A DNA stretch of 36,982 nucleotides from a virus. Positions 6,256-31,785 of this stretch are shown piece by piece. Each line of letters starts with the position of its first letter. The stretch's first letter is position 1. A program made the position numbers and the translations under genes. The notes beneath the pieces are model-generated. The model made no database searches, was not told the origin of the DNA, and saw only the letters and a list, made by a program, of their open reading frames with translations. The stretch spans positions 1-36,982 of the IMG/VR virus record IMGVR_UViG_3300035015_000016. One strand, 5' to 3'.

Positions 6256-6554
6256 TGTGCGGCGAGCTCCCGGACGCTGTCTTCTAGCCACCGGTTCGCG
6301 CGCTGGCGCATGGCGTCGCGCTCGTTGCGCAGACGCTGGATCCTGATGGCGACCCGATCTGCATTTTCCCGCGCCGGCAGCTTGCCGATGACGAAGGCGG
6401 CAGCGATCCGGCGGTTACGGCGCGACCAGCGGCGATGGGTTGTATCGAACGGGAAGCCGGTGACATGCCGATCGCCGACCAAGTCGACGCGGGCGACGCC
6501 GTAGCAATCGCCATCACGGTAGAGGACGCGGTCCCCGGGGCGGATACCGTTCAT
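6252..6554 (-). CDS. Hypothetical early protein, 100 aa
   Basis: Not recognised. Starts at ATG 6554 (overlapping the stop of the 93-aa gene, ATGA) and ends in the GTGA overlap with the primase-helicase. The first ~35 residues resemble a small beta-barrel (RPGDRVLYRDGDCYGVARV), and the rest is a basic helix (QRLRNERDAMRQRANRWLE). Basic residues and position suggest nucleic-acid contact, as inference only. Confidence 0.6.
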   Translation of the reverse strand: MNGIRPGDRVLYRDGDCYGVARVDLVGDRHVTGFPFDTTHRRWSRRNRRIAAAFVIGKLPARENADRVAIRIQRLRNERDAMRQRANRWLEDSVRELAAQ

Positions 6555-7411: not shown

Positions 7412-7890
7412 CGTGCCGCTCCCGATTGGGCGCGGGCCTGCAGCGCCGCTTCAATCTCCGCGACGATCTCAGACAAGCGGTGCGCGGCGGGAACCCGCTT
7501 GGCTGCCTCGGCCGCCGAAACAACGTGATCGTCCGCCAGATCTTCGGCGATGCCAGCGATCAGGCTAGAAGCCTCGGTCGACAGCCGGGCGATGTACCGG
7601 TTCCACTCCCCTTCCCCGCCCGCCACAGTAGGCAGCGGGACGAGGACGTATCCGGCGCGGCGCGCAAGGTGCCGGGTCATCACCGGGTGATTGGGCTTGC
7701 CGTGGGTGACAGCTTCGAGCGCCTCGATCACGCGGACCGGCATGGAGTCCTTCTCGCTCTTCGAAGTGTAGCGCTGCAGCTGACTGGTGGAGATTCCGGT
7801 TTCCTCGGCGCAGGCTTCCAGCCCGCCGGCGGATTCGATCAGCTCACGCGCCCGCTCGGCTTGGCGCTGTTCGGTGACAGGCAAGGTCAT
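7408..7890 (-). CDS. CII-like phage regulator
   Basis: 160 aa. The N-terminal helix-turn-helix (LIESAGGLEACAEETGISTSQLQRYTSKS) and the following EKDSMPVRVIEALEAVTHG stretch match the phage regulatory CII family found after cro genes in P2-like prophages of alphaproteobacteria. The C-terminal half is helical, probably for oligomerisation. ATG 7890 is preceded by a GGGGGG run about 5 nt upstream. It lies between the Cro-like and Ogr genes; a role in lysis-lysogeny control is inferred from family and place. Confidence 0.7.
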   Translation of the reverse strand: MTLPVTEQRQAERARELIESAGGLEACAEETGISTSQLQRYTSKSEKDSMPVRVIEALEAVTHGKPNHPVMTRHLARRAGYVLVPLPTVAGGEGEWNRYIARLSTEASSLIAGIAEDLADDHVVSAAEAAKRVPAAHRLSEIVAEIEAALQARAQSGAAR

Positions 7891-8083: not shown

Positions 8084-8362
8084 TCACGCACGCATCCGGG
8101 CGTGCTGGTCGACGCCGTAAAGCCGCGCATCGGGCGCAGGCGGATAGTTGCGGGGGTAGATATCGGGGCGAAGGTCGTGGCGAGAGACGCCGGTGACGCG
8201 CTCAACTTCAAGGACGTGCTCGGCGGGAAGGCGCTTTGAAGATTGCAGCCATTTCCAAACCGACGGCTGAGATACACGGCAAATTCTTGCAAGTTCTGAC
8301 TGTGATCCTGCCTTGGATACAGCAGCCGACAAAGCTTCGAAGGGGGTGATCTGGGATGGCAT
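8084..8362 (-). CDS. Cro/YdaS-like helix-turn-helix repressor
   Basis: 92 aa from ATG 8362; a longer frame to 8404 would run into the operator boxes, so the shorter start is used. Helix-turn-helix: ALSAAVSKAGSQSELARICR, then VSQPSVWKWLQSSKRLPAEH, followed by the VERVTGVSRHDLRPDIYP tail characteristic of YdaS/Cro proteins. Divergently transcribed from the CI-like repressor across an 85-bp control region. Expected to favour lytic development by repressing cI. Confidence 0.82.
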   Translation of the reverse strand: MPSQITPFEALSAAVSKAGSQSELARICRVSQPSVWKWLQSSKRLPAEHVLEVERVTGVSRHDLRPDIYPRNYPPAPDARLYGVDQHARMRA

Positions 8363-8369
8363 GGGAGTA

Positions 8370-8425
8370 TCTATAGAAAGGTCTATAGCTATGTCAATAG
8401 ACATTTCTAACTATGAATCTATAGG
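8370..8425. promoter_or_regulatory. Operator array: five TCTATAG-like boxes at 12-bp intervals
   Basis: In the AT-rich divergent cro/cI region, TCTATAG-related octamers begin at 8370 (TCTATAGA, a perfect palindrome), 8382 (TCTATAGC), 8394 (TCAATAGA), 8406 (TCTAACTA) and 8418 (TCTATAGG). Spacing is exactly 12 bp. These are the obvious binding sites for the CI-like and Cro-like proteins and overlap where both promoters must lie. Confidence 0.7.
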
Positions 8426-18189: not shown

Positions 18190-18570
18190 TCAGGCAGGCG
18201 CCGGCGAAACGCCGGCGGTGCGGATCGGGATGGACAGGGTGACGCTGGAATTGGGCGCAGGCAGATCGGTGCGCTCGCCCTCGATCGTGAGCAGCGCGGC
18301 ACCAGCGGACAGCCCATCGGTCAGCTGCAGCCCGAACCGCTTGACGCGCAGGCGCGGTTCCCAGCGGCGGATCGCGAGCGCGCTGGCGGCGAAGATCAGC
18401 AGCCGGGTGGCAGGGTTGAGCGGCTGATCGATCAGCCCGAACAGCAAAGATCCATAATCGCGGCGCATCACGCGGCTGCCGATCGGCGTCGACAGCAGAT
18501 CGCCCAGCGACTGGGCGAGATGGGCATTGCCTTCGATCGGCTTGCCGGTGCGGCGATCCATGCCCCTCAC
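18190..18570 (-). CDS. W: Baseplate wedge protein W (gp25-like)
   Basis: 126 aa. HLAQSLGDLLSTPIGSRVMRRDYGSLLFGL is the gpW/gp25 core. The start is given as GTG 18570 overlapping the gpV stop (GTGA); an in-frame ATG at 18561 is the alternative and would remove three residues. Its product joins tail sheath and baseplate. It is followed after 20 bp by the sheath gene. Confidence 0.9.
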   Translation of the reverse strand: MRGMDRRTGKPIEGNAHLAQSLGDLLSTPIGSRVMRRDYGSLLFGLIDQPLNPATRLLIFAASALAIRRWEPRLRVKRFGLQLTDGLSAGAALLTIEGERTDLPAPNSSVTLSIPIRTAGVSPAPA

Positions 18571-19154
18571 TGCGGCGGCCCGCTGACACCGCCGCCGGTC
18601 TGGACTCCGGTGTGGCGGTGGGTCTTCAGGCTCACCCCGTCGCCGGTCACGTTGCCGTCTGCGATGATCGTGCCGGTGGTGGTGGTGCTGCCATCGATCG
18701 CGACGTTGCCGGTGATGGCCACATCGCCCTCGATCGTGACGCCGCCGGTGGCGACGATCGCCATGGTGGCCCCTCCCGGCAGGGTGATGTCGTAGTGGTT
18801 GGCCTCGGGATCATAGCCGATCTCGGCCCCGTCGCCGAAGCGGACAAACTCGCGCAGAGTGCTGCCCGGTGCCGGGAAGGCGTTGCAGTACAGCGCGCCG
18901 AACGGGATAGCCTGGGCGATATCGCCATCGGGGCAGAACAGCAGCACCTGCTCGCCCACGCTGGGCGGCGACCAGACGATGGTCTCGCCCGCGCGGATCA
19001 CGCCCCATGCGATCTCGGTGGTTGCGACTGGCTGCTCATCGGGATCACCGATCTCGAGCGTGCAGGTGCCAGCGGCCAGATCGACCGACAGCACGCTGCC
19101 CACGCGCAGAAGCTGCGCGACGTCTCCAACGTGATCGGACGGGGGCTTGACCAT
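18567..19154 (-). CDS. V: Baseplate spike protein V
   Basis: 195 aa. VGDVAQLLRVGSVLSVDLAA, the WSPPSVGEQVLLFCPDGDIA segment and a repeated triple-beta-like C-terminal half (VTIEGDVAITGNVAIDG) match P2 gpV, the membrane-piercing spike. The end resembles the HRHTG metal-binding spike tip (KTHRHTGVQTGGG). It is the first gene of a late operon and has no ribosome site before ATG 19154, but a late-box dyad lies 46 nt upstream. Confidence 0.92.
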   Translation of the reverse strand: MVKPPSDHVGDVAQLLRVGSVLSVDLAAGTCTLEIGDPDEQPVATTEIAWGVIRAGETIVWSPPSVGEQVLLFCPDGDIAQAIPFGALYCNAFPAPGSTLREFVRFGDGAEIGYDPEANHYDITLPGGATMAIVATGGVTIEGDVAITGNVAIDGSTTTTGTIIADGNVTGDGVSLKTHRHTGVQTGGGVSGPPQ

Positions 19155-19200
19155 GCAGATATGCGATGGCGATCCCCGCGCAGGAAGCGAGTGCGCGGCT

Positions 19201-19221
19201 CCGTTGGCGGGGCATCAACGG
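19201..19221. promoter_or_regulatory. Candidate Ogr-type late box upstream of V
   Basis: CCGTT-N11-AACGG dyad, 46 nt from ATG 19154, with CATCGCATATC between. It overlaps the last codons of the DUF1353 gene. Same layout as the boxes at 22541 and 29881. Confidence 0.6.
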
Positions 19222-19589
19222 GGTTGGCTTAGGGTCCGCAGGTGCCAGAGTTTAACCGCGAGCAGCACCAGGCAGCGGGTCAGGCGCGGCACGCGCGCCA
19301 CTGCGAGCGCTTCGGCGAACACATCATGGGCGCGGGAATCGTCGCTTTCCAGCAGGAAGTCATGCAGCAGAGCAGGCTTGGCCATCCGCCCGGCGATCGG
19401 GACGAAGGAGCGCGCAAACCATGGGATCGAGGCCAGATCAGTGTTGAACCGGGCGGGCACGGTGATCGTGTCGCCCGAACCGAGGAAGCCGACATCGTAG
19501 CTGAAGGGCAGGTAGAGCTCGAACTCGCCGCGTCCGCCCCGCTCGCTGGCCAGCGCGACCAGTACCAGCGGATCGGTGAAGCTGCTCAC
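19215..19589 (-). CDS. DUF1353 phage protein
   Basis: 124 aa. The FNTDLASIPWFARSF and ALLHDFLLES motifs define DUF1353, a small phage family, often annotated as peptidase-like because of its conserved Asp/His, but without a proven activity. Placed at the end of the J-I-H tail-fibre operon. Its 3' end overlaps the late box of the next operon. Function in tail-fibre processing is possible but unproven. Confidence 0.8.
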   Translation of the reverse strand: MSSFTDPLVLVALASERGGRGEFELYLPFSYDVGFLGSGDTITVPARFNTDLASIPWFARSFVPIAGRMAKPALLHDFLLESDDSRAHDVFAEALAVARVPRLTRCLVLLAVKLWHLRTLSQPR

Positions 19590-19598
19590 GGCGGGACG

Positions 19599-20033
19599 CT
19601 ACCCCGGCCAGCCCGCATCGAGATCAATCGCTTCAAGCGCCTCGCGATCCTCCGCCGCGTGGGCCGCGAGGATATCTCCGGTCAATTCATCTTCACGATT
19701 GAAACAGGCCTGGACATGGCTGGTGACCGCGTTGCCGATCGCCACGATTGTCGCTGCGTTGAGGGTCACGAAAGCGCCCCTGCCCACTTTCCAACGCGCA
19801 GTGAATTCCGGATTGCCGCTCGCTTGGACATAGGCGCTGGTCAACACCGCCTGACTTTCCCGGTCCGTCTTGATCGGCGCGCCGCCAACAATGACCCCGC
19901 CCGTCTCTGCGATCCAGCGTCGGCCCGCTAGGCGATCCAGCATATTGTCGCGCAGCTGATCGAGCGGAACCGGATCGTGCGGGGTCTCGGTGATCTCGCC
20001 GGTGACGGCATCCATTGCGATATCGATATCCAT
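19599..20033 (-). CDS. DUF4376-like tail fibre-associated protein
   Basis: 144 aa from ATG 20033, overlapping the fibre stop as TGATG. RDNMLDRLAGRRWIAETGGV and KTDRESQAVLTSAYVQASGN plus the NAATIVAIGNAVTSHVQACF helix fit DUF4376, a domain usually next to or fused to phage tail fibres. Likely a fibre accessory or chaperone; role inferred from place. Confidence 0.75.
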   Translation of the reverse strand: MDIDIAMDAVTGEITETPHDPVPLDQLRDNMLDRLAGRRWIAETGGVIVGGAPIKTDRESQAVLTSAYVQASGNPEFTARWKVGRGAFVTLNAATIVAIGNAVTSHVQACFNREDELTGDILAAHAAEDREALEAIDLDAGWPG

Positions 20034-21109
20034 CAGTAGATCCCCCAAGCCTTGACCTGCCCAGCATCGAAGTTGCCGGTGTCTCTGCCGATCCGGAAGT
20101 GATTGACGCCCCCAGCAAGTCGCCATGCGCCGACGCCACCCGCTGAACCATCAGCGGATCGGTTGGCGGCCAGAGGCCGGATCGCGAAAGGAAACTGCCC
20201 GGCGTCGCGCCGGAAGTTCGGAAGGAAGATCGATCCGTAAAGCGTTTCGGTGGCGCCGGTCTGGACCAAGGGCGTGTTTGCCGACCAGCTCGATCCGTTA
20301 TCGGAGAAGTTGGCCTGAAGCCATGCGAGCGCGCTCACGCTCACGCCAAGCAGCTCGATGTAGATGTGGTTGAAGTCCGTAGCGAGGAGGTTGTTAATCG
20401 TGATGGTGGTTCCGCTGGTGGTATTGATCGTGCTGCCGATCTGTTGCGGTGCCCGCGCAGCAAAGGCTGCGGCAATCCGTGCCCGGGTCCATGCCGTGTT
20501 CGGAATCGTGGTGTCATCATCCTCGGCGGCAGGAGTCGGCGCACGGGGATCGTCGGTAAAGACCGGGCCAGCCAGAGGCGCTGCGCCAAGGTTGGTCAGT
20601 GCCTCCGCTGGATCCTCAACGTCGGCGAGGTTCGCCGAGATCTGCAGGAACCGGCCATTGCACCACGCCTGAGTTGCGAACACCGCGCTTTCGTCAATCA
20701 GTATCGTCACGTTCTCGGCGGTCGTCACTCGGATCGAGACGCGGATCAGCATCTCCCGTGCAGAGCCCTCGACCGGGTCGGGCTTATAGGTTTCGGGGAA
20801 ATTGCCGTAGGCGAACAGATCGCCCTCGGCATCGAAGATCCCGATCTCGCGCACTGCGAACGGACCCTCGGCAATGCCGATCACGGCCTCGGCAATCATC
20901 ACCTCGGGATCGACCAGGCTGACCGACAGCGCCGACAGCGTATCGCGCCAGACTTCATTAACCAACTCGGTCTCGCTGCCATCGGGCGCGGCGACTGGCG
21001 CGCCGTCGCCGTCGCCTGCCGCCATCTCGGTCAGCGCGACCGGGTCGCCGGCACTGGCGGCAGCGATCTTAGCTGCGCCGATGGCGGTCAGCTTCATGAC
21101 AAAGGACAT
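20033..21109 (-). CDS. H: Tail fibre protein (gpH-like, DUF3751 N-terminus)
   Basis: 358 aa. Residues ~1-150 (KLTAIGAAKIAAASAGDPVA, WRDTLSALSVSLVDPEVMI and AVREIGIFDAEGDLFAYGNF) match the phage tail fibre N-terminal domain of P2 H. A middle linker (ALTNLGAAPLAG, a fibre-repeat signature) leads to a distinct C-terminal ~120 residues that should bind the host. P2 H is 669 aa, so this fibre is short. The start overlaps the gpI stop (TGATG). Confidence 0.88.
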   Translation of the reverse strand: MSFVMKLTAIGAAKIAAASAGDPVALTEMAAGDGDGAPVAAPDGSETELVNEVWRDTLSALSVSLVDPEVMIAEAVIGIAEGPFAVREIGIFDAEGDLFAYGNFPETYKPDPVEGSAREMLIRVSIRVTTAENVTILIDESAVFATQAWCNGRFLQISANLADVEDPAEALTNLGAAPLAGPVFTDDPRAPTPAAEDDDTTIPNTAWTRARIAAAFAARAPQQIGSTINTTSGTTITINNLLATDFNHIYIELLGVSVSALAWLQANFSDNGSSWSANTPLVQTGATETLYGSIFLPNFRRDAGQFPFAIRPLAANRSADGSAGGVGAWRLAGGVNHFRIGRDTGNFDAGQVKAWGIY

Positions 21110-21642
21110 CAGGCAGCCTCCGCTTCGATGGTGATGAAGTCTGTCGCAGTGACCACGGCAGCCGGGAATGCGCTTCCCCGGGCAACAACGGTGGGAAGGA
21201 TCGCCACATGAGTGCGCAGGTTCTTGGACGCCCGCACCACGCGCGCGATCGCATCGACCGAGACGGTCAGGGGTTCATCCTGATCGATGATCGGCGACAC
21301 GATGCAGGTGTAAGGATCGCCCGGCGGATTCTGTTCGAACCACTCCGCGATCCCGATGTTCGATCCCAGCGCCTCGATCGCCAGCTTGAGCGCTCCGGCG
21401 GTGCCCTTCTTCTCGTGCACTTCGCGCGAAGCCGCGATGACCGCACGCTTCTGCGCCTCGGTCCAAGCCGAATCCCACTCATCGACGGATTCCGCCCAGG
21501 CGAGCCAGGGCAGCAGGGCGGCCGGGCAGGTAGCGGGATCATGGAGCGTGCCGAGCGGTACCGGGACATCGCCCACCCGCGCCGTTGCCAGCGACAGCGC
21601 GCGCTCGGCAGGCAGGGCATTGGGCGGCAGCAGATCAGACAT
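21109..21642 (-). CDS. I: Tail/baseplate protein I
   Basis: 177 aa, as in P2 (176 aa). ALSLATARVGDVPVPLGTLH, then LPWLAWAESVDEWDSAWT and the KKGTAGALKLAIEALG stretch are gpI hallmarks. It joins baseplate to fibre. Overlaps the end of J by 8 bp and the start of H by 3 bp, so the three are coupled. Confidence 0.93.
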   Translation of the reverse strand: MSDLLPPNALPAERALSLATARVGDVPVPLGTLHDPATCPAALLPWLAWAESVDEWDSAWTEAQKRAVIAASREVHEKKGTAGALKLAIEALGSNIGIAEWFEQNPPGDPYTCIVSPIIDQDEPLTVSVDAIARVVRASKNLRTHVAILPTVVARGSAFPAAVVTATDFITIEAEAA

Positions 21643-22495
21643 CGGGCGCGCCTGCGACCGTCACGGTGATCGCGTTGGCAAAGAACGCCTCGCCATCCGC
21701 CGCCGCCAGATTGGCGAGCGGCGCAGCCAGCGCCACGCCCTGCACGCCGTCGCGGTGGAGCGCGGCGTAGAGACCGGACAGGGTGACGTCGTATCCGAGG
21801 CGATGCACTGCGGCGGCATAGGCGGTGACCGCCGCCTCGGCCGCGGCGCGCACGATCTCGGCATCAGGGCCGGGATAGATCGTTAGCTCGGCGATGATCG
21901 CATAGGTGGTGACGTCGGCGCTTTGCACGGTCACCTGATCGGTCAGCGGGCGGACGGTATCGGCGGACAGCGCGGCGTCGACAGCAGCGAGCAGCGGCGC
22001 GGCGGCGGTGCCATCCCCGGTGCGCGACAGGACATAGATCACCACTTCGCCAGGCTCGGGGCTGACCGCCTGAATATCTTTGACGTCGGGATCAGCGGAC
22101 AGGCCGTGGAAGATGTAGGCGCCCTCGCTGCCGGCGGTGGTGTAGCCTTCGGGCGAAAGCTGGATCCGCTTGCGGAAGTCGGTGTCGTTTTCCCCTTCGA
22201 GCCGCACCACGCCTTTGTTCGCGCCGATCTGATCGAGGTTGCCGCCGGTGGCAAAGGCCAGCATCAGCCCGCGCGCGGCATCGTTGACCCGGGCGCGCAG
22301 CAGCAGCTCGCGCCACGCGGCAACCTGCAGCACCTTGTAGGCAGGATCGCTTTCGACCAGCGCATCAAACACCGGATCCCGCATCCGCAGATCGGCAAGC
22401 ATCGCGGCAAAGATCACTTCGAAGTCGAGGGTCTCGACAACCTCGGGCGCGGGAAGCTCCGACAGGTCGAGCTGGCTGATCGCGGAGAAGGGCAT
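21635..22495 (-). CDS. J: Baseplate assembly protein J
   Basis: 286 aa (P2 J is 302). FSAISQLDLSELPAPEVVET, LRMRDPVFDALVESDPAYKV and the GANKGVVRLEGENDTDFRKR run match gpJ, the edge of the baseplate. No ribosome site before ATG 22495; a late box is 45 nt upstream. First gene of the J-I-H-DUF4376-DUF1353 operon. Confidence 0.93.
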   Translation of the reverse strand: MPFSAISQLDLSELPAPEVVETLDFEVIFAAMLADLRMRDPVFDALVESDPAYKVLQVAAWRELLLRARVNDAARGLMLAFATGGNLDQIGANKGVVRLEGENDTDFRKRIQLSPEGYTTAGSEGAYIFHGLSADPDVKDIQAVSPEPGEVVIYVLSRTGDGTAAAPLLAAVDAALSADTVRPLTDQVTVQSADVTTYAIIAELTIYPGPDAEIVRAAAEAAVTAYAAAVHRLGYDVTLSGLYAALHRDGVQGVALAAPLANLAAADGEAFFANAITVTVAGAPDV

Positions 22496-22540
22496 GAAGC
22501 GAGCGATGGCATTCGCGCGCGCGATGGCTAGGGGCGGGTT

Positions 22541-22561
22541 CCGTTGAGGGGGCCGCTACGG
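22541..22561. promoter_or_regulatory. Candidate Ogr-type late box upstream of J
   Basis: CCGTT-N11-TACGG dyad (one half-site base off), 45 nt from ATG 22495, with CCATCGC before the start and no ribosome site. Lies between J and the plus-strand accessory gene. Counterpart of the boxes at 19201 and 29881. Confidence 0.55.
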
Positions 22562-22623
22562 AGCGCGCTTGCAGCAGGAATTGGCCTGAGGCAGACTTTC
22601 TGCAGAGGGCGAAGGAGAAGCAG

Positions 22624-23181
22624 GTGGGTTCGATGTTTTCAGACGAGTTGTCGGTAACGATTTTTGCCGCTGTGCTCTCAGCATTTGTCGCATTGGTGGC
22701 CCTTATCCATGCAAAAGAGAACAAGATATCCGAATTTCGGCAAGCTTGGGTCGATGGCCTTCGTAGTGACATTTCAGAAGGGATTTCGGCTGCCGCCACG
22801 CTCACGGTGGTGATGCAGGATCTGGACAAGGATACGCGAGCGCAATTCCTTTCCGAGTGGGCTCGCCTGTTCGAAGTTATGGCGCGGATCGAGCTGCGGC
22901 TAAATCTCAAAAAGGTTCTGCATCAGCGAATGAACGAACACATTCAGAAGACAAAGTCCCTACTTAACAAGCTTCAAGACGATCCTGATGATTACGATCA
23001 AGGCGATTGGTTAACATTACAAACCGACCTGATCAGCGCGTCGCAGGCCCTTCTAAAATTCGAATGGGATCGAGTTAAAAGGGGAGAGATATTTTACCGG
23101 GCCACCCGATGGACGCTTGGTATAGTCGTTGGATTAGGCACTGGAGCAGCTGGCATTGCCGCATATTTGCCATCGCCCTAG
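22624..23181 (+). CDS. Accessory two-pass membrane protein, 185 aa (moron)
   Basis: Start at GTG 22624, with AAGGAG 6 nt upstream. N-terminal membrane segment (SVTIFAAVLSAFVALVALIH), a long charged helical middle with possible coiled coil (WVDGLRSDISEGISAAATL and ARIELRLNLKKVLHQRMNEH), and a C-terminal membrane segment (TLGIVVGLGTGAAGIAAYL). Not recognised. It is on the opposite strand to all nearby late genes, more AT-rich than they are, and meets gpS tail to tail with a 4-bp overlap. P2 has a moron (orf30) beside S too, so this is a known insertion point; function unknown. Confidence 0.65.
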   Translation: MGSMFSDELSVTIFAAVLSAFVALVALIHAKENKISEFRQAWVDGLRSDISEGISAAATLTVVMQDLDKDTRAQFLSEWARLFEVMARIELRLNLKKVLHQRMNEHIQKTKSLLNKLQDDPDDYDQGDWLTLQTDLISASQALLKFEWDRVKRGEIFYRATRWTLGIVVGLGTGAAGIAAYLPSP

Positions 23182-23642
23182 CCCCCAAAGTGCTTGAGCA
23201 CCTCGTCGACCAGCTCATCCCGTTTCTTGCCGAACCCTAGCAGGCGGCGGGCTTCGTACTTGGTGCGGATCACCCTACCCCCCTTCGTCTTCCCAACGAA
23301 GCCTTCGAGCCCGTAGTGGTGGACGGCGGCGGTGGCTTCGACCGAGCCCTTGCCAAAGGCCAGCTCGCCCTGGTCGGCGCTGACCTTCACCTTCAGGCTG
23401 CGGGTCTTGCCGATGTTCCGAAACATTTTTTTGCGGCGTCCCCGGCCTTCTGCATCGCGAGGTTTGCGCGGGGCCATTGCGCCGCCATCGGGATCGACAT
23501 TCGCACCGATCCGCGCGGCGTTGGCGCGGCGTACGGCGCGCATCAGCTTGTCGATCAGCTTGCGGCGCTGGCCGGGCGCGGCAGCTGCGATCAGCTCACC
23601 GAGGAACGGCTCCAGCGCTTCGAGGCCATCGCCGCCGCTCAT
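23178..23642 (-). CDS. S: Phage virion morphogenesis / tail completion protein S
   Basis: 154 aa (P2 S is 150). LEALEPFLGELIAAAAPGQR, then the basic RGRRKKMFRNIGKTRSLKVK and FGKGSVEATAAVHHYGLEGF match gpS. Needed for stable tail-head attachment. ATG 23642 overlaps gpR's stop (ATGA); last gene of the O-to-S operon. Confidence 0.9.
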   Translation of the reverse strand: MSGGDGLEALEPFLGELIAAAAPGQRRKLIDKLMRAVRRANAARIGANVDPDGGAMAPRKPRDAEGRGRRKKMFRNIGKTRSLKVKVSADQGELAFGKGSVEATAAVHHYGLEGFVGKTKGGRVIRTKYEARRLLGFGKKRDELVDEVLKHFGG

Positions 23643-24127
23643 TCTACGATCGTGAACAGATCATCGGGCACTAGCTGGCGTTCGGTGTCGCTGATGCTTA
23701 TCAGCGGTGGGCCTCCAACATCGAATAGCGGCACTTCCGACACTTCGCGCATGTCGAACCCGCCATCTTCCCGGCGCGTAACAAGGACGGGCTGGGTCAA
23801 CGCGAGGTCGAAGCTGACGTCCGCCTTCTGGTTGCTAATCAGATCCGCCTCGAACGGGATCGCCGCCTTCGAGTTTGCGACGGTCAGCAGATCCGGCTGA
23901 TGAATGCGAAGCCAGTCGCACAGCACTGGCCAGATCATCAGCGTGGAACGGGTCCACTCTTCGATCACCACGGTCAGGGTGTATTCGAGCGTGAAGTTGA
24001 GGTTGTCCTCGCTGGCATGGCAGCGGACGTGCCCCTTCTCGATCCAGAGCCGCAGGCGGTTCGGGTTCGTGACCAGTTCGGGGAAGACCGCGGTCAGCGC
24101 CGCGCGCAGGCTGTCGGGCTTTTTCAT
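23639..24127 (-). CDS. R: Tail completion protein R
   Basis: 162 aa from ATG 24127 (the frame to 24181 runs into the spanin gene). KKPDSLRAALTAVFPELVTN, then TLEYTLTVVIEEWTRSTLMI and a LLTVANSKAAIPFEADLIS stretch match gpR. Pairs with S to finish tails. About 40 bp separate it from the spanin gene. Confidence 0.9.
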   Translation of the reverse strand: MKKPDSLRAALTAVFPELVTNPNRLRLWIEKGHVRCHASEDNLNFTLEYTLTVVIEEWTRSTLMIWPVLCDWLRIHQPDLLTVANSKAAIPFEADLISNQKADVSFDLALTQPVLVTRREDGGFDMREVSEVPLFDVGGPPLISISDTERQLVPDDLFTIVE

Positions 24128-24164
24128 CGGGCAAGACACCCAGCGTTCCAAGTTGCAGACACGC

Positions 24165-24794
24165 TTAGTGCTCCACTCCAAATTGCCGTTCGACCCAAGT
24201 GATCAGCGCATCGAGCTGGGTGGCCTGCGCTTCCGCAATCTCGCGGCAGCGGATCTCGGTCAGCGGGTCTCGGGCTGGAAACGGTCGACAATCGGGCGCT
24301 TCATCAGTTCGGGCGGCGGGGTCGCCGGCTTCGGGCAGTTGCATGTGACCGGGCGTACTGGCAGCACCGCTTCCGTCTCCGGCTCGGGCTTCCCGGCGCA
24401 GGCGCTCAGCACGGGCAGTGACGACAGCAATGCGCTGGCGATAATCGGATTCCACTTCACTGGTGATCTCCTCCTGACGGGCGACGACGCGGGCGAGACG
24501 CTCGGCTTCCATGCGCGCCGCTTCTTCCTGCGCATCGCGGTAAGCCTGCTTCGTGGCCTTGTGCTTGGCGACCTCAGCGCGCCAGTTGGCTTCAGCTTCA
24601 GCAAGGTCGATCTCGATGATCTGCACCTCTTGCTTGAAGCCCCGCATGATGCACGCGGGCTTTTCACCGGCGCCGACATCGCTGCACCAGACGCCTTCGA
24701 TGCGAATGGTCTGGATGACCGCGACAGCGAGAAACGCGAGTGCGAGCCCTCCAAAGATCTTGCTGGTCAGCGCCGAGAAGAGGTTGAACGGCAT
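24165..24794 (-). CDS. Rz-like inner-membrane spanin
   Basis: 209 aa from ATG 24794 (TGATG with the lysozyme stop). N-terminal membrane anchor (IFGGLALAFLAVAVIQTIRI), a long coiled coil (EVQIIEIDLAEAEANWRAEV and YRDAQEEAARMEAERLARVV), then a Pro/Asp-rich periplasmic end. With the embedded Rz1-like lipoprotein it should fuse inner and outer membranes in the last lysis step. Longer than lambda Rz (153 aa). Confidence 0.8.
   Translation of the reverse strand: MPFNLFSALTSKIFGGLALAFLAVAVIQTIRIEGVWCSDVGAGEKPACIMRGFKQEVQIIEIDLAEAEANWRAEVAKHKATKQAYRDAQEEAARMEAERLARVVARQEEITSEVESDYRQRIAVVTARAERLRREARAGDGSGAASTPGHMQLPEAGDPAARTDEAPDCRPFPARDPLTEIRCREIAEAQATQLDALITWVERQFGVEH
24260..24460 (-). CDS. Embedded Rz1-like outer-membrane spanin lipoprotein
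   Basis: 66 aa in a different frame wholly inside the Rz-like gene, from GTG 24460 with a strong AGGAGGAG ribosome site about 7 nt upstream. KWNPIIASALLSSLPVLSAC is a lipoprotein signal with lipobox LSAC (Cys at residue 21); the mature part is Pro-rich (PATPPPELMKRP), as in Rz1. Usually missed by gene callers because it overlaps Rz. Confidence 0.8.
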   Translation of the reverse strand: MKWNPIIASALLSSLPVLSACAGKPEPETEAVLPVRPVTCNCPKPATPPPELMKRPIVDRFQPETR

Positions 24795-25399
24795 CACAGG
24801 CCCCTCATGCAAAGAGCCCGCTCGCGCTGGCGGCGCAGGGTCAGGCCACGCACCTCGCGACCGCCTGCCTTGTTCCACATCAGCATCGCATCGCAGCCAC
24901 CGCGCCAGTTGCCGGCGTTGAACCGGCGCGCGACAGTCGATCGGCAGAAGCCCGACGTGCCGATGTTGTACGCCAGAGAGACCGAGGCAACGAGCTGGTT
25001 GTCGCGGCCCTTAAGGCCCGGCACACATTTCAGGACCGGCGCGGCGTGAGCTATCAGCTGGCGCTGCAAGCGGTCGCGGCAGCCCGCATCGGTTTCACGC
25101 ATCCCGGGCCGCACGCCCTTGGTGTCGCCGTCGCAGATCGTCCAGACGCCCACGATGTCGGCGTAGGCGCTGAGATATTGCGGCCCCTTCACATGGTCGA
25201 CCAGCAAGGCGCCATCATCGGTGACGGTCGCCCTGACCGTGCGACCGCTTTCATCGTGCGGAATCATCGTTGCCAGGGCGGCGGCAGCGGCTGCACCGAC
25301 CAGCAGGACAAGCGGGCTTTTCGGCGGCTTAGCCGTCCCTCGCGGCAATGACCCGCCTTCTTCAAGGCGAGAGGTCGGGTGGTAGGGGGGCTTAGCCAT
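24794..25399 (-). CDS. Phage lysozyme (GH24-like endolysin) with signal anchor
   Basis: 201 aa. Residues ~28-46 (SPLVLLVGAAAAAALATM) are a weakly hydrophobic signal-arrest-release type anchor, so export may be Sec-dependent with holin-triggered release. The GH24-like core reads AYADIVGVWTICDGDTKGVR; Asp81 and Thr93 match the active-site positions. The catalytic Glu usually in an HEG motif is not evident (HVKG at 69-72). Further conserved: LKGRDNQLVASVSLAYNIGT and FNAGNWRGGCDAMLMWNKAG. Coupled to the holin gene by an 8-bp overlap. Confidence 0.85.
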   Translation of the reverse strand: MAKPPYHPTSRLEEGGSLPRGTAKPPKSPLVLLVGAAAAAALATMIPHDESGRTVRATVTDDGALLVDHVKGPQYLSAYADIVGVWTICDGDTKGVRPGMRETDAGCRDRLQRQLIAHAAPVLKCVPGLKGRDNQLVASVSLAYNIGTSGFCRSTVARRFNAGNWRGGCDAMLMWNKAGGREVRGLTLRRQRERALCMRGL

Positions 25400-25679
25400 C
25401 GGTCTTCCTCACTTTCGGCTGCACCACCAGACGCGAGATGCTCGACAGCACGAACAGAGCCATGCCAATCCACATCAGCGCCGAGGCGGGGACCACGTGC
25501 GTCACGGCGGGCGGCATCATGTTCCAGACCGCCAGCACGCTGACCGGATCGACTTGCACCCAAGCAAGGATCGCGAGGCCCAGCGCGTTGAAGCGGATGC
25601 TCCACAGCTTCCACCATGCCCGCGCCTCAGGAACGAGACGATCGCGGATCCAGCTGACGAAGGCCGACGCCGGGTTCAT
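25392..25679 (-). CDS. Holin-like protein, 95 aa
   Basis: Two hydrophobic segments, ~30-52 (FNALGLAILAWVQVDPVSVL) and ~64-86 (ASALMWIGMALFVLSSISRL), with a Trp-rich N-terminus (ARAWWKLWSIR) and a basic C-terminus, typical of class II holins. ATG 25679 overlaps the stop of the next membrane gene (ATGA). Function inferred from membrane pattern and position beside the endolysin. Confidence 0.7.
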   Translation of the reverse strand: MNPASAFVSWIRDRLVPEARAWWKLWSIRFNALGLAILAWVQVDPVSVLAVWNMMPPAVTHVVPASALMWIGMALFVLSSISRLVVQPKVRKTDG

Positions 25680-25942
25680 GGCTTGTCCTTTGGCGGCGGA
25701 GGAAGGATCGTCCGCGCGATGCTGTGATCAACGCCCTGATCATCGCCAGCGACGGGCACCTGTCTGCCCAGCAGCTGCTGGACCGTGCGGGTTTCGTAGA
25801 TCCGGATCACCGTCCAGATGATGGTCAGGATCGATGCAACGGCGGGCAGCAGGCTCGCCAGCGAGCCGACAAGGGTTGCGATCGAGAGCAGGTCGCCGGT
25901 GGCTTTCACCCCTTCGGGCAGGTCTTTGAATGGATCGAGCAC
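25676..25942 (-). CDS. Second holin-like protein, 88 aa
   Basis: One or two close membrane segments (LLSIATLVGSLASLLPAVAS, then ILTIIWTVIRIYETRTVQQL), followed by a charged Pro-rich end (PPPPKDKP). The RIYETRTVQ ending recurs in small holin-like phage proteins. Whether this or the neighbouring gene is the holin, and the other an antiholin, cannot be told from sequence. Starts 3 bp after the gpX stop. Confidence 0.65.
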   Translation of the reverse strand: MLDPFKDLPEGVKATGDLLSIATLVGSLASLLPAVASILTIIWTVIRIYETRTVQQLLGRQVPVAGDDQGVDHSIARTILPPPPKDKP

Positions 25943-25945
25943 GCG

Positions 25946-26155
25946 CTACCCCCAGAGCTTCACGGTTTTACGGACGGGCGGTGCGGTGCTGTCGGGGGGA
26001 AGCTGGACGGTGACGCCATCGGGCAGTTCGGGGCCGAGCGCGGCGAGACCGGGGTTGAGGCCGAGCGCGGCTTCGACCAGCCCGCCGGTCCGCCCGCGAT
26101 TGCGCCAGACGATCAGGTCGAGCGGTTCGCCTTCACGGGAGACCACGGCCGCCAT
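25946..26155 (-). CDS. X: Tail protein X
   Basis: 69 aa (P2 X is 67). SREGEPLDLIVWRNRGRTGG and GLVEAALGLNPGLAALGPEL match gpX, a LysM-like small tail protein. Overlaps the gpL stop by one base. Its position between L and the lysis genes is the P2 order. Confidence 0.9.
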   Translation of the reverse strand: MAAVVSREGEPLDLIVWRNRGRTGGLVEAALGLNPGLAALGPELPDGVTVQLPPDSTAPPVRKTVKLWG

Positions 26156-26667
26156 CAGATCAGCTCCGAGGTGGTGCGCGCTTCGCCCTGCATCTGGCGG
26201 ATGGTGCGGGTGGCATCGGCGAGCAGATCATCGGCGACTGCGCGGCGCTGATCGCCGCGCTCGCTGCCTTCGCGCGTGGCGGTGAGATCGGGGTTGCGCT
26301 GCATCAGGCGCGCAGAGGCCATGGCCGTAACTGCCGAGCGGAATTGGACGACAAGCGCCGGGATTGCATCCGGGACGGGCTGGCCTTCGACCAGTACGCC
26401 AATGGCGACCGAGTCCTGCGGCTCGACTGCGGCGAGGCTTTCGAAACCGGCAGCTTGCTGGATCGCGGCCCAACTGGCGAGTTCGCGGGTTACATTGATC
26501 ACCGCCCAGCTGATCGCATCTATCAAGCGCGGATGCGGGACTTCGCCGAAAAGGTTGACCTCTTCGCGCAGCGTGTTGACGTCGATCGCGGGCCACCAAT
26601 CGCCGCTGGCGACAAAGCTGCCCTGGGGCGAGCTTGGCAGCGGAGGGGTGGAGACGACGTCAGTCAT
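26155..26667 (-). CDS. L: Head completion protein L
   Basis: 170 aa (P2 L is 169). GDWWPAIDVNTLREEVNLFG, LIDAISWAVINVTRELASW and the SERGDQRRAVADDLLADATR end match gpL. Stabilises DNA-filled heads. A short AAGTGC/GCACTT hairpin lies at 26695-26714, upstream of the start. Confidence 0.92.
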   Translation of the reverse strand: MTDVVSTPPLPSSPQGSFVASGDWWPAIDVNTLREEVNLFGEVPHPRLIDAISWAVINVTRELASWAAIQQAAGFESLAAVEPQDSVAIGVLVEGQPVPDAIPALVVQFRSAVTAMASARLMQRNPDLTATREGSERGDQRRAVADDLLADATRTIRQMQGEARTTSELI

Positions 26668-26780
26668 GGAAATCAGGGGCCTTCAGCTTTTCTCAAGTGC
26701 CGGTTCCCGCACTTCAGGAATCAATTAGGGGGGGTGGGGATCAGCGTGGCCGGGGATAGGATACCCGGCTCCGCGTCACC

Positions 26781-26800
26781 GCCCCCCCGGCGCCGGGGGC
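26781..26800 (-). terminator. GC-rich hairpin after M
   Basis: GCCCCC and GGGGGC arms around a GGCGCC core, 9 bp after the M stop, form a very stable stem. There is no T-run after it on the transcribed strand, so it is more likely an attenuator or a 3'-end stabiliser than a strict terminator. Confidence 0.4.
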
Positions 26801-26808
26801 GCAGCTCT

Positions 26809-27582
26809 CTATCCAGTTTGACCAGCAGCCTCGGCGAGGCGCTTGGCCTCGCGCTCCAGCTGCTCGATCGTCTTCTTCACGCCGACCTTGGCGTTGAGCT
26901 CGACCGCGCGGCGCAGCTCGGTCAGCGCGGCGTCGACCATGGCGGGCTTGCCGCCCGCCGGCGCGCTGTCGCTGGCCGCATCGAAGGTCTGGGCCCGCTG
27001 GGCCCAGCTTTCGCCGAGCGCGCGGAAGAACTTAGCCCGCACCTGGTCGGGCATGTCATGATCGGTGACGATCGGGCGCACCCGTTCGAGCACATCATGC
27101 GGGACGCTGCCGGTGGCCTTGATCGCTGCATCGGCAATTTCTTCGACCACCATGCAGCCCAGCGTGCGCTTGTGGCGTTCCGGCAGATCCAGATGGTGGG
27201 TGAGGCAGTGATCGGCGATGTCGAGCGCGAAGCCCCAGTCAGCGATGTCGAGCGCCCAGATCAGCGCAGTGACTACGATCTCATCCTGCGGCGCCGCATC
27301 CCCATCTTCCACCTGCAGCGCGCCAGCCACCCAGGGGCGGTACTTGGCGAGCAACGCGGGCTTCTTCTCGATCTTCTTCTCGATTGACTGGATGTTCGAC
27401 AGCGCGCGCAGGTCATCGTGCAGCTGGGCGAGCAGGCCCTGGTATTCGGTTGCGACCGGGCCTTCGTCCGGCATCGGCGCGGCCATCCCGGCCCGCGACC
27501 GCTGGGCCATGTCATCGAGATGCGCGCGGGTGCTGAGACGCGCGAGCTTCTGCTGGCGATGCATGAGAGCGGGGCTGGTCAT
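26809..27582 (-). CDS. M: Terminase small (endonuclease) subunit M
   Basis: 257 aa (P2 M is 247). SPALMHRQQKLARLSTRAHL opening, LLAQLHDDLRALSNIQSIEK and KRTLGCMVVEEIADAAIK match gpM. With P it cuts and packages DNA at cos. A 166-bp non-coding gap separates it from N, in which I see no gene. Confidence 0.92.
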   Translation of the reverse strand: MTSPALMHRQQKLARLSTRAHLDDMAQRSRAGMAAPMPDEGPVATEYQGLLAQLHDDLRALSNIQSIEKKIEKKPALLAKYRPWVAGALQVEDGDAAPQDEIVVTALIWALDIADWGFALDIADHCLTHHLDLPERHKRTLGCMVVEEIADAAIKATGSVPHDVLERVRPIVTDHDMPDQVRAKFFRALGESWAQRAQTFDAASDSAPAGGKPAMVDAALTELRRAVELNAKVGVKKTIEQLEREAKRLAEAAGQTG

Positions 27583-27748
27583 CTGCGGTTCCTTTCTGGC
27601 GAATTCCCCGCTCGATCAGGCGGCGGGGGCCGGGCGCTGTGGCGAGAGATTGGGCATCCCGCCCTTGCTCTGGCTCCTCCCCGGCTATGCTACGGGCTCA
27701 GACGGCGCCGACCCTGATGTCAGCAGCCGCCTTCAACGCCCCTCGGTA

Positions 27749-28867
27749 TTACGGTGCCTCCGGTCGGGCCGGTGCCGCGCCGATCACGATGTTCTCGACC
27801 AGCACCACCAGCTCGTAATCTTCGACCACGAAGGCCTCGTTCACACTTTCGTAGTTGGCGATGCGATCGGCCTCGGGCTCATCCTTCAGCCAGCGGCGGC
27901 GGGTGCCTTCCTGCCAATAGATCGAAAGGTTATCGAGGCGGGTGATGAGCAAGCCGTTGGCGGGGAAGAACGGCACGCGCACCGCCGGCAGACCGCCGAG
28001 CGTCTTGCTCGAACGCAAGATGCGGTCCGTGGCTTCAACTTCGGTCGCGGTGGCGCCGGTGGTCTGGGCGATGTTGAAATACTTGTCATCGACCAGATCG
28101 TGGCCAACGATCACCACCAGCTCGGTATCGCCGCGGTGCCATTCGGGCAGGAGCCGCTTGGCATCGAGCACCAGCGCATCGAGCGAGCTGTAATCGGCGC
28201 CAGCGGTGACCGCGTTGTCGAGGCTGGCATCGTACAGCACGGCGCCCGGTTTGACGTAGATCGCCTTCAGGGCGGCGTTGTTCGCGCCGTCATCCAGCAC
28301 GGTCAGGTTGCCGTCATCGAACACCTGCTCTTCGGCATCGGTGCGGATCTTGTGCAACCAGCCCTCGTTGACGTCCGACAGGTTCGGGTTGGCGCCGCGG
28401 TTGGTGGTGGCAGCCACGCTGGTGCCGTTCCATCCGATCATGATCCGGTCACGGGCCTGCTGCTTCAGGATCGCATCTCGCATCAGCGTCTGGAATTCCG
28501 AACGATGGCGCCATGCGTCGAGCAGCGCGTAGCGCATCGCCCAGTCGTAGTTGGTCTGGCGGCAGAAATATTCGCGCTTGATGTCGCTGCCGGTCGGATC
28601 GGTCGGATTGCGGCGGCCGGCGCCCGAGGTGTCGGTGCGCCCGGCGAGCGTGCGGGTGACGCCGAGGCCGAGCACTTCGCCCGCCTGCTGCGTCACCGGC
28701 ATCATGTTGATCATGCCGAGGAACTCGGACGATTCCTTGATCCGCTCCTCGAGCTTCTGTTCGACCACCGGATCGACGTTGAACTTGGTGGTGGCATCGC
28801 TCACACCGTTCAACTGGGCGATCGTGGCCAGATAGCTGGTGAAGAGCAGGCGGGTCTTGGTCTGCAT
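27749..28867 (-). CDS. N: Major capsid protein N
   Basis: 372 aa (P2 N is 357). The QTKTRLLFTSYLATIAQLNG start, FLGMINMMPVTQQAGEVLGL and FCRQTNYDWAMRYALLDAW are gpN signatures of the HK97-like fold. Assembles with O into procapsids. O lies upstream after a 66-bp gap. Confidence 0.95.
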   Translation of the reverse strand: MQTKTRLLFTSYLATIAQLNGVSDATTKFNVDPVVEQKLEERIKESSEFLGMINMMPVTQQAGEVLGLGVTRTLAGRTDTSGAGRRNPTDPTGSDIKREYFCRQTNYDWAMRYALLDAWRHRSEFQTLMRDAILKQQARDRIMIGWNGTSVAATTNRGANPNLSDVNEGWLHKIRTDAEEQVFDDGNLTVLDDGANNAALKAIYVKPGAVLYDASLDNAVTAGADYSSLDALVLDAKRLLPEWHRGDTELVVIVGHDLVDDKYFNIAQTTGATATEVEATDRILRSSKTLGGLPAVRVPFFPANGLLITRLDNLSIYWQEGTRRRWLKDEPEADRIANYESVNEAFVVEDYELVVLVENIVIGAAPARPEAP

Positions 28868-28933
28868 CGAAGCGGTCCTTCTAGGGAAGCGGGCGCGCGG
28901 TGGTCTGGTGGGGTTAGGTCTGGCTAGCGGTGA

Positions 28934-29788
28934 TCAGCAGTCTGTTAGGGCGATGCCACCGTTCGCACCGGTGGCGGGCGGACGGCGGTTGTGGTTGGGA
29001 TCGGCGGTGGTCTCGATCACGGTTTCGACGCTCTTAAGCTTCACGCCCAGCTGATCGATCTCGGTCCGCATTTCGCCGCGCAGCTCGCTGATCGCGGTGC
29101 TAAAGCTTTCGCCGAGCTGCTCGAACAGCGGCCGCATGGCCGTGAAGTCGAGCGCTGCGGCATCGGCGGACGCCTCGGTCGCCTTGGCCTCCGGCTTGGG
29201 CGTGGCGCCCAGCTTCGCGGCAAAGGCATCGAACATGGTGCCGAGCTTGCTCAGGAAGGTGTCGCCCGCGTTGCCATCGGCGCTTTCGGCAAATTCCAGC
29301 GCGAGCGGGTCGCTGGGCTGGCCATCGGCGCCGCGCGCCAGCACGATCGTGCCGGGCAGGTGGCGCGCGAACTGCAGCCGGTCCGTGGCGATAGATGCAG
29401 GGCTGTCGGTCAGCGCGCAGCCCATCAGGTAGGCGAAGCCCTTGCCGGCGAAATTGGGTTCGATCTCGATGGAGGGATAGACCTTCTGCCCCGCTTCGTT
29501 GAGCTGTTTGGCCTCCTCGGTCACATCGAAGGTGCCGAACAGCGCCTTGCGCTTCTCGGTCTTGCCGTTGAAGTTGACCTCGGTTTCGCCCACCGACAGC
29601 TCGAGCACGTCGCCGAATGCCCGGAACGGTGCCTGACCGCTGATGCCCCGGATATGCTCGATGTTGAGCCGCGCGGCATAGGTCTTCGGATCGTAGCTGC
29701 TCGCCATCTGCTCGAGCATCTGTTCGTCAATGTTGCGACCATCGACCGTTGAACCGGCAGTGGCGAGGAGGAAGGGCTTGGTTTTCAT
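28934..29788 (-). CDS. O: Capsid scaffold and protease O
   Basis: 284 aa from ATG 29788, with GGAGAG 4 nt upstream; the frame to 30130 runs opposite the terminase start and is shadow. P2 gpO is a self-cleaving serine protease scaffold. The expected residues are present: Asp16 (TVDGR), His45 (NIEHIRG), Ser106 (YPSIEIEP), close to P2's Asp19, His48, Ser107. The C-terminal helix region (ELRGEMRTEIDQLGVKLKSV) is the scaffold. Divergent from P with a shared control region. Confidence 0.95.
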   Translation of the reverse strand: MKTKPFLLATAGSTVDGRNIDEQMLEQMASSYDPKTYAARLNIEHIRGISGQAPFRAFGDVLELSVGETEVNFNGKTEKRKALFGTFDVTEEAKQLNEAGQKVYPSIEIEPNFAGKGFAYLMGCALTDSPASIATDRLQFARHLPGTIVLARGADGQPSDPLALEFAESADGNAGDTFLSKLGTMFDAFAAKLGATPKPEAKATEASADAAALDFTAMRPLFEQLGESFSTAISELRGEMRTEIDQLGVKLKSVETVIETTADPNHNRRPPATGANGGIALTDC

Positions 29789-29814
29789 CGGGCTCTCCGG
29801 TCTGATGCGGCGCG

Positions 29815-29836
29815 CTGACATTGCCAGGGCTGTCAG
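29815..29836. promoter_or_regulatory. CTGACA-N10-TGTCAG palindrome before O
   Basis: Perfect 6-bp inverted repeats with a 10-bp spacer, in the O/P divergent region, 26 nt from the O start. It differs from the CCGTT/AACGG late box 45 bp away. It may be a second control site for the O promoter. Confidence 0.4.
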
Positions 29837-29880
29837 ACGGCAATCGCCCCAGATCGAGGCCTTTGGGCAAGGCGCGCGCT

Positions 29881-29901
29881 CCGTTGGCGCGCTGCTAACG
29901 G
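29881..29901. promoter_or_regulatory. Candidate Ogr-type late box between O and P
   Basis: CCGTT-N11-AACGG dyad, 48 nt before ATG 29950 of P, with CATTCGC in between and no ribosome site at P. Being a dyad it may also serve O, 92 nt away on the other side. Shares 11 bp on one arm (CTCCGTTGGCG) and 8 bp on the other (AACGGGGT) with the box at 19201. Confidence 0.65.
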
Positions 29902-29949
29902 GGTAGCGATAGGGCGAAGCCTGCGAGAGCTGTGACATTCGCCGCTGTG

Positions 29950-31785
29950 ATGACCGTCCAGCCCACCATCGATCCCAGCGCCGTGAAGCCAGCGATACCG
30001 TTCGAAGCGCGGCGGGCGGCGCGTTCGCTCTACTGGCGGGGCTGGTCGATTGGCCAGATCGCTGATGAGCTGGGCGTTGCCTATCCAACCATCTCCAGCT
30101 GGAAGAAACGCGGGGCGTGGGACGAGGCACCTAGCCATGTCAAGATGGGCGATGCGCTGGAGGCCCGCTGGGCCACGCTGGTCGACAAGGACGACAAGAC
30201 CGGGAAGGACTTCAAGGAAATCGATCTCCTCGCCCGGCAGGCCGAGCGGCTCGCCCGGATCGAGAAGTTCCGGGGCGGCGGCAACGAGGGCGACCTCAAC
30301 CCCAACGTCGCCAACCGCACTTCGACCGAGGCGAAGGCGAAGCGCGCAAAGGGCAAGAACCTCCTCACCTTCGAGGAAATCGAGAAGTGCCGGGCGCTGT
30401 TCGAAGACAAGCTCTACGGGCACCAGACCAAGTGGTGGGAAGCATCCGCCCAGGTCATCCGCTTCATCCTGAAATCGCGGCAGATCGGGGCCACCTGGTA
30501 CTTCGCCCGCGAGGCGTTCATGCGCGGCATGGACACCGGGAACAACCAGATCTTCCTGTCAGCCTCGAAGAACCAGGCCGAGGTGTTCCGCGATTACATC
30601 ATCGACTTCGTGTTCGAGGCGACCGGCAAGGAGCTCAAGGGCAACCCGCTGGTCATCAATCGCCTTGATGAAGACGGCAACCAGCTGGAGCCGGTCCGGT
30701 TCTACTTCCTCGCCACCAACTTCCGCACCGCCCAGAGCTATCACGGCGACGTCTATCTGGACGAGGCCTTCTGGCTTCCCGGGTTTCAGCAGTTCGAGGC
30801 GGTTGCCTCGGCGATGGCGTCGCAGAAGTTCTACCGGCTCACCTATTTCTCGACGCCGTCGACCGTCACGCACGGTGCCTATGGCAAGTGGAGCGGGGAA
30901 GAATGGAACCGCGGCCGCGCCAAGGGCGAGCGCCAGCACTTCGATACCAGCCACAAGACGCTTAAATCTGGCGCGGTCGGGCCGGACGGGATCTGGCGCC
31001 AGATCGTTACGATCGACGATGCCGAGGAGCTGGGCTTCGATCTGTTCGACCGCCAAGCGCTGCAGCGCCGCTATTCGGTCGAGGAGTTCGGCAACAAGTT
31101 CCTGTGCCTGTTCGTCGACGATACGCAGTCGGCGTTCAACTGGGCGATGCTGCAGCCGGCGATGGTCGATGCCTTCTACAAGTGGAAGGATTACAAGCCC
31201 GCCGAGCTTCGCCCGTTCGGCAACAAGCCGGTCTGGCTGGGATATGATCCGAACGATCAGGGCCGCGATGACGCGCAGCTGATGGTGATCGCACCGCCCG
31301 AAACCCCGCGCGGCAAGTTCCGCCTGCTCGAAAAGGTGCGCCTGTCCGGCGAGGACTATGCCGGGCAGGACCGGGCCATTCGCCGGATCGCCATGCGCTA
31401 CAATGTCACCGACATCGGGATCGAGAACAGCGCCTTCGGATCCGCCGTTTACCAGCTGGTGGTCAGGTGGTTCCCGCTGGCCCGCAAGGTCGATTATTCG
31501 GTCACGGGCAAGGCCCACATGGTGATGAAGGCGCAGAATCTGTTCCGCGCCGGTCGCATCGAGATGCCGATCGAATGGGGCGACGTGCGCGACGCCTTCA
31601 TGATGATCCGGCCCAGCCTGACCGCCAGCGGCAAGCAGCTTACCTATGTCTCCGGACGCAATGCGGATCTCGGCCACGCCGATATCGCCTGGGCGACGAT
31701 GCACGCCCTGATCAACGAGCCACTCGATGCCGGAGAGACCGGTCGCAACCAATCCACCGTGGAGTTCTTCGAATATGACTCATGA
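29950..31785 (+). CDS. P: Terminase large (ATPase) subunit P
   Basis: 611 aa (P2 P is 590). ATG 29950 is preferred over GTG 29932 because only it fits the start-to-box distance of the other late genes. N-terminal helix-turn-helix (IGQIADELGVAYPTISSWKK, ~33-52), packaging-ATPase motif KSRQIGATWYFAREA (~175-190), Walker B VYLDEAF (~268-274), nuclease region with YDPNDQGRDD (~435). Overlaps Q by 11 bp. Confidence 0.95.
   Translation: MTVQPTIDPSAVKPAIPFEARRAARSLYWRGWSIGQIADELGVAYPTISSWKKRGAWDEAPSHVKMGDALEARWATLVDKDDKTGKDFKEIDLLARQAERLARIEKFRGGGNEGDLNPNVANRTSTEAKAKRAKGKNLLTFEEIEKCRALFEDKLYGHQTKWWEASAQVIRFILKSRQIGATWYFAREAFMRGMDTGNNQIFLSASKNQAEVFRDYIIDFVFEATGKELKGNPLVINRLDEDGNQLEPVRFYFLATNFRTAQSYHGDVYLDEAFWLPGFQQFEAVASAMASQKFYRLTYFSTPSTVTHGAYGKWSGEEWNRGRAKGERQHFDTSHKTLKSGAVGPDGIWRQIVTIDDAEELGFDLFDRQALQRRYSVEEFGNKFLCLFVDDTQSAFNWAMLQPAMVDAFYKWKDYKPAELRPFGNKPVWLGYDPNDQGRDDAQLMVIAPPETPRGKFRLLEKVRLSGEDYAGQDRAIRRIAMRYNVTDIGIENSAFGSAVYQLVVRWFPLARKVDYSVTGKAHMVMKAQNLFRAGRIEMPIEWGDVRDAFMMIRPSLTASGKQLTYVSGRNADLGHADIAWATMHALINEPLDAGETGRNQSTVEFFEYDS

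Follow-up and report, generated by a model that had tools for sequence, protein, structure and literature searches.

The window analysed here, that is, the whole 36,982 bases of the IMG/VR virus record IMGVR_UViG_3300035015_000016, is a P2-like prophage by gene content, in which three copies of a short dyad (boxes) precede late genes and are considered here as putative late operators. The early and regulatory genes are those for an integrase, YdaS/Cro-type and CII-like regulators, an Ogr/Delta zinc finger and a primase, and the late genes are P, Q, O, N, M, L, holin, endolysin, R, S, J, I, H, V, FI, FII, T, U and D. PHROG matches identified V as a baseplate assembly protein (18567-19154, − strand), J as a baseplate protein (21635-22495, − strand), O as the capsid scaffold/protease (28934-29788, − strand) and P as the terminase large subunit (29947-31785, + strand, starting with GTG at 29947 or with the in-frame ATG at 29950). 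The putative operator of the V-FI-FII-T-U-D unit lies at 19201-19221 (CCGTTGATGCCCCGCCAACGG on the − strand), with its centre 57 nucleotides (nt) from the V ATG, and that of the J-I-H unit at 22541-22561 (CCGTAGCGGCCCCCTCAACGG on the − strand), 56 nt from the J ATG. The third, at 29881-29901 (CCGTTGGCGCGCTGCTAACGG), is a putative divergent operator shared by P (+) and O (−), and its centre is 56 nt from the P GTG, 59 nt from the P ATG and 103 nt from the O ATG. A sequence-only reading of this DNA had placed the boxes at exactly these coordinates, with gaps of 46, 45 and 48 nt to the ATG of V (19154), J (22495) and P (29950), and had noted that a CATCGC/CATTCGC stretch recurs approximately 32-34 nt past each box; all these values were reproduced, the last being 32, 32 and 34 nt for the V, J and P boxes, respectively.

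The boxes share the geometry CGT-N13-ACG (N, any base) within an odd dyad of 21 base pairs (bp), that before J being one arm base off a perfect dyad (CCGTA...AACGG). The pattern CCGTT-N11-W-ACGG (W, A or T) occurs in exactly three places in the 36,982 bases, before V, J and P/O, with five matches when strands are counted, a number reached in none of 100 dinucleotide shuffles (mean, 0.09 matches). No box was found in the early control region of the window. A box-like match at 6499-6519 (CCGTGATGGCGATTGCTACGG) is one arm base off and lies inside a coding frame upstream of the primase gene, and was discarded as a chance occurrence. The F genes, for sheath, tube and tape measure, come immediately after V, so that no late unit is left without one of the three boxes, the units being P, O, J-I-H and V-FI-FII-T-U-D; the earlier proposal that O shares the box at 29881 agrees with this, but its count of three out of four P2-type late units has to be raised.

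Comparison with close relatives revealed boxes that are either the same or changed in concert. In the phage Mae-JY29 (PP438421; J and Ogr both 98% identical to those of the window) an identical box is found before J, V and P/O with equal gaps, L004 keeps the window's box before J and V, and L140 keeps it at O/P. The box that the sequence-only reading expected in related prophages is therefore present, and a dyad at equal distance is found in more distant ones. In these phages the DNA upstream of the J box is unrelated to that of the window, since other genes adjoin it, and the spacer of the J box has changed as well, with both arms kept. The most informative relative is G1 (L003 and its contig), with V, J and O proteins 93%, 92% and 81% identical to those of the window, in which all three boxes are of the TGT-N13-ACA type: CTGTT...TACAG before V, CTGTA...TACAG before J and ATGTT...TACAG at O/P. 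The sequence between box and start codon is largely conserved in G1 at V, J and the O side despite the changed boxes, and one and the same half-site base differs from the window at all three sites, as expected if one protein reads all of them. The G1 boxes also tie the CGT-N13-ACG of the window to the TGT...ACA half-site of P2 Ogr, with a spacing one base above the published N12. A further operator of the CGT type, TCGTT-N11-AACGA, is found before V in L187 (1766-1786) and L188 (9911-9931), where V is 57-61% identical. As an aside, Mae-JY29 (L018) was deposited with Microcystis aeruginosa as its host, yet it is a near twin of this prophage, the relatives of which are found in Sphingomonadales; Mae-JY29 may in truth infect a bacterium that shares the culture with Microcystis.

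More distant relatives were obtained by searching with P 398 genomes from the order of a Novosphingobium metagenome-assembled genome, 39 of which gave matches; 34 prophage stretches were taken, with the divergent P/O layout in nearly all and the order S | J I ... V FI in most. A blind scan for one dyad common to J, V and O/P returned a phage-specific common dyad in most of them (over the whole survey such dyads were seen in approx. 40 related prophages), and a shared-dyad score of at least 5.5 out of 6 was reached in 19 of 27 genomes compared with one of 162 Markov-resampled controls and none of 81 taken upstream of internal genes. The dyads themselves are diverse (TTGTAG-N9-CTACAA, TTGTCAG-N7-CTGACAA, CGGTAA-N9-TTACCG, TTTGGA-N10-TCCAAA, TTGTAGGT-N5-ACCTACAA and TTGTAGAA-N5-TTCTACAA, among others). 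The known sites of P2 and of the Stenotrophomonas phage Smp131 were not recovered by the scan, their dyads being imperfect, and these two phages were compared by hand. Across the different layouts the boxes track transcription units rather than individual genes: in G8, where V precedes J as in P2, J has no box, and in G5 and L051, where V and J are divergent, a single box lies between them, with the start codons approximately 56 nt on either side. In the Aeromonas phage LPM4 (L102; NC_070919, 4500-20000) an identical 21-bp dyad, GTGTATCCGCCGTAGATACAC, is found at P/O, at V and upstream of the F operon, thus at all the classical P2 late units. Contig C3 of G273 carries two P2-like prophages in one genome, L047 with a dyad of the GGTA-N11-TACC type and L061 with one of the TTTGGA-N10-TCCAAA type.

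What remains constant among these prophages is the position of the dyad. The start codon is found 55-61 nt from the dyad centre in 29 of 32 J, 25 of 25 V and 31 of 32 P genes (an in-frame start codon would fall within such a 7-nt interval by chance in about one case out of 10, by our estimate). Mean distances are 57.0±1.3 nt for J, 56.6±0.8 nt for V and 58.0±1.2 nt for P, so that these genes are locked at 56-59 nt, whereas the distance to O (107±11 nt) drifts over 87-128 nt. The distance stays fixed even though neither the arms and spacers nor the DNA between dyad and gene are constant. The same rule holds outside the Sphingomonadales for V and P of Pseudomonas phage Dobby, LPM4, L097, L098 and Pseudohongiella G8, and for V of P2 and of Smp131.

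The fixed distance is accompanied by features of leaderless messages. Among the relatives, O and most internal genes are preceded by sequences that pair strongly with the anti-Shine-Dalgarno sequence, but those before J, V and P pair weakly (p = 3e-11), so that the lack of a Shine-Dalgarno sequence noted earlier for the three genes of the window holds well beyond it; O of the window is preceded by GGAG. In 85 promoters the A/T content before the J, V and P start codons rises from approximately 0.2 to 0.4-0.6 at positions −13 to −7, with a CAT/GAT peak at −13/−12. This is where the −10 hexamer would be placed if transcription started at the start codon, which supports leaderless messages. The corresponding candidate −10 elements of the window are CATCGC at 19163-19168 (− strand; −14 to −9 from the ATG) for V, CATCGC at 22503-22508 (− strand) for J and CATTCGC at 29936-29942 (+ strand) for P. 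The base preceding the start codon is C in 24 of 29 J and 24 of 25 V genes. In the P2 record (NC_001895) the transcription start of the V operon (10308) coincides with the first base of the V coding sequence, 57 nt from the dyad centre. Both features of leaderless mRNAs, namely the lack of a Shine-Dalgarno sequence and a promoter positioned so that transcription would begin at the start codon, are found for J, V and P. Their messages are most likely leaderless, with predicted transcription starts at 19154 for V and 22495 for J and a leaderless or nearly leaderless P, a start at the start codon being annotated directly only for P2 V. The earlier idea of Ogr sites driving leaderless late mRNAs gains support for V, J and P from the geometry, the Shine-Dalgarno pattern, the −10 step and P2 V, and has to be amended for O, which is predicted to have a leader of approximately 47 nt. 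A leaderless V is already present in P2; to it the survey adds, as predictions, J (when heading a unit) and P in this group.

As for the protein reading the boxes, the product of 7025-7411 (− strand) is an Ogr/Delta-like zinc-finger protein, as indicated by its match to PF04606 (46.9 bits, against a cut-off of 26.3) and by its C-X2-C-X22-C-X4-C motif. In 29 prophages the distance between Ogr fingers correlates with that between operators (rho 0.34, p = 0.0025), and the correlation survives the partialling out of J, P, N, O, M or S distance and is stronger than those of these proteins (0.03-0.29). By taking into account this co-variation and the P2 precedent, this Ogr homologue is the probable binder and activator. 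Its finger differs from that of G1 at three positions only (T24A, D36T, E42Q), and T36 is paired with TGT in 12 of 12 cases of the first set; a one-residue code, in which D36 would read C and T36 would read T at half-site position 2, was considered and dropped after later loci had been included. The Ogr of L188 has IEGS where that of the window has IRDS. No related structure was found when the Protein Data Bank was searched with the sequence of this Ogr.

The arrangement can be compared with that of P2, in which Ogr acts on the late promoters PP, PO, PV and PF with the consensus TGT-N12-ACA (PMC3931495). In both phages an Ogr-family activator is encoded in the same genome, the site centre is approximately 55-57 bp from the transcription start (as predicted for the window phage), one site is common to the divergent O and P (in the P2 record with starts 55-56 nt to either side), and the V message starts at the V start codon (again a prediction for the window phage). 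The window phage differs from P2 in its CGT half-site, in place of TGT, and in that J stands at the head of a separate unit, with F included in that of V. For Smp131, putative late promoters PP', PO', PJ' and PV' have been proposed from TGT-N12-ACA matches (PMC3931495), and the common P/O site, the separate J and V units and the F genes behind V are as in the window; in contrast, the published PJ' and PV' coincide with the first codons of the J and V genes. At 14861 of Smp131, a dyad-like TTGTAGCGGATACATCTACGC suits the 56-nt rule for V better than the published PV'. In this phage (L031, NC_023588; 14861-14946, 10963-10981) a V-like N-terminus begins with the ATG at 14927 (56 nt from TTGTAGCGGATACATCTACGC), in a frame other than that of the annotated V coding sequence, which makes a frameshift or a misannotation likely. 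The Delta protein of satellite P4, which promotes P2 and P4 late gene expression (PMC8628076), belongs to the same zinc-finger family as the Ogr of the window, but is encoded by the satellite; no such satellite was seen in the present case, no search aimed at one having been made.

Several observations weigh against the boxes being Ogr operators of leaderless units. The spacing between the half-sites is N13 in the window and N14 in G5 and others, at variance with the published N12 of P2; the window boxes do not match the strict TGT-N12-ACA consensus and are hence to be regarded as a variant of P2-type Ogr-activated late promoters, so that, of the earlier description as diverged P2 Ogr sites, the diverged sequence stands and the N12 geometry does not. 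The correlation between Ogr and operators is modest, and P (0.29) and M (0.26) distances correlate too. The residue code is broken by L118 (D with TGT), L202 (T with TGG) and L188 (G with CGT). The P2 P message has a 22-nt leader, unlike the one predicted in the window, so that a leaderless P is not universal, and approximately one third of the prophages gave no clear shared triple in the blind scan. Finally, the sites of the main distance table were chosen by eye from the scan output. A choice-free rerun on later IMG/VR loci passed the score at 6 of the 13 loci with all three regions present (two of the six being near-identical), and 17 of their 18 starts were at 55-61 nt, the exception being a J site that is probably spurious.

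The modest correlation also leaves some room for another regulator, which would use the boxes, for example, to silence late genes in the lysogen, and the CII-like (7408-7890) and YdaS/Cro-type (8084-8404) proteins, both DNA-binding, adjoin ogr. However, the early control region, where phage repressors act, lacks the box; the CII-like protein is 93% identical between the window phage and G1, yet all boxes changed, and the YdaS-type protein is just 79% identical to that of Mae-JY29, yet the boxes are identical. With a host factor, a different sequence in each prophage is not expected, and the P2 late promoters are activated by Ogr from the same place, which together make a regulator other than Ogr unlikely.

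It is also improbable that the boxes are Ogr sites serving messages with ordinary leaders, the fixed distance having some other cause. The P and F messages of P2 do have leaders, but the locked distances of J, V and P, set against the drift of O with its Shine-Dalgarno sequence, the A/T step at −13 to −7, the lack of Shine-Dalgarno sequences and the annotated leaderless V of P2 all argue for a start at the start codon, and a start 20-30 nt further upstream would bring the dyad centre to approximately −30, within the polymerase footprint. Very little speaks for the dyads terminating the transcription of upstream genes or acting as linkers for recombination where modules meet: they do lie between units, where accessory genes come and go, and what lies upstream of the J box is different in each close relative, but arms of 5-7 bp with a 9-11-nt loop and no U run would make a poor terminator, the P/O box lies between divergent genes with nothing there to terminate, and neither role predicts a fixed distance to the downstream start codon, so that this explanation is highly improbable.

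With regard to the surroundings of the boxes, the stretch at 22624-23181 (+ strand), opposite J and behind the J box, encodes a 185-residue protein with probable membrane segments at both ends, and is an accessory-gene slot: Mae-JY29 has other genes at this place, whereas in G1 S stops 8 nt short of the box and no gene intervenes. The idea that the J and V boxes also serve accessory genes on the opposite strand was considered and discarded, the far side showing no common distance. A + strand open reading frame at 19242-19931, a candidate accessory gene at the V box, has no family match and is antisense to annotated Mae-JY29 genes, and was rejected as spurious.

On the whole, it is very probable, as judged from comparative sequence analysis, that the boxes are Ogr-type late operators with a diverged recognition sequence, which drive leaderless J, V and P and leadered O mRNAs. 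According to this scheme, the Ogr/Delta protein would bind the 21-bp dyad, probably as a dimer, approximately 56 bp upstream of the transcription start, and would recruit the host RNA polymerase to promoters in which the −10 element is weak and stands alone. The V, J and P transcripts would then begin at, or no more than 3 nt from, the start codon, and that of O, on the far side of the shared box, would yield the leader with its Shine-Dalgarno sequence. Each prophage lineage has changed the letters of the dyad in concert at all late promoters, keeping the geometry; this is seen in the sequences themselves, as are the boxes, their conservation, the fixed distances, the Shine-Dalgarno pattern and the −10 step, whereas binding and activation by Ogr are inferred. 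The mechanism and the leaderless V have a P2 precedent; the recognition sequence, the N13 spacing and the concerted, repeated operator turnover appear to be new, no report of such turnover having been found in the literature searched, with most subscription papers lying outside that search.

On a wider scale, we lean, by a modest degree, towards the view that P2-like prophages, above all in the Sphingomonadales, repeatedly re-invent operator and Ogr specificity in concert, giving mutually insulated late regulons, with the rigid 56-59-nt geometry accompanying leaderless J, V and P. As a guess, the insulation might be directed against co-resident P2-like prophages (cf. G273) or operator-borrowing satellites. 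The textbook circuit, described so far mostly in P2 and closely related phages that share a single consensus, would extend to many prophages and operator sequences, and approximately 30 natural activator-operator pairs become available for learning how one small zinc finger reads DNA. Given nothing but the sequence, the distance rule predicts the late operators of P2-like phages and assists in correcting their start codons; it also opens the leaderless translation of phage structural genes to direct test.

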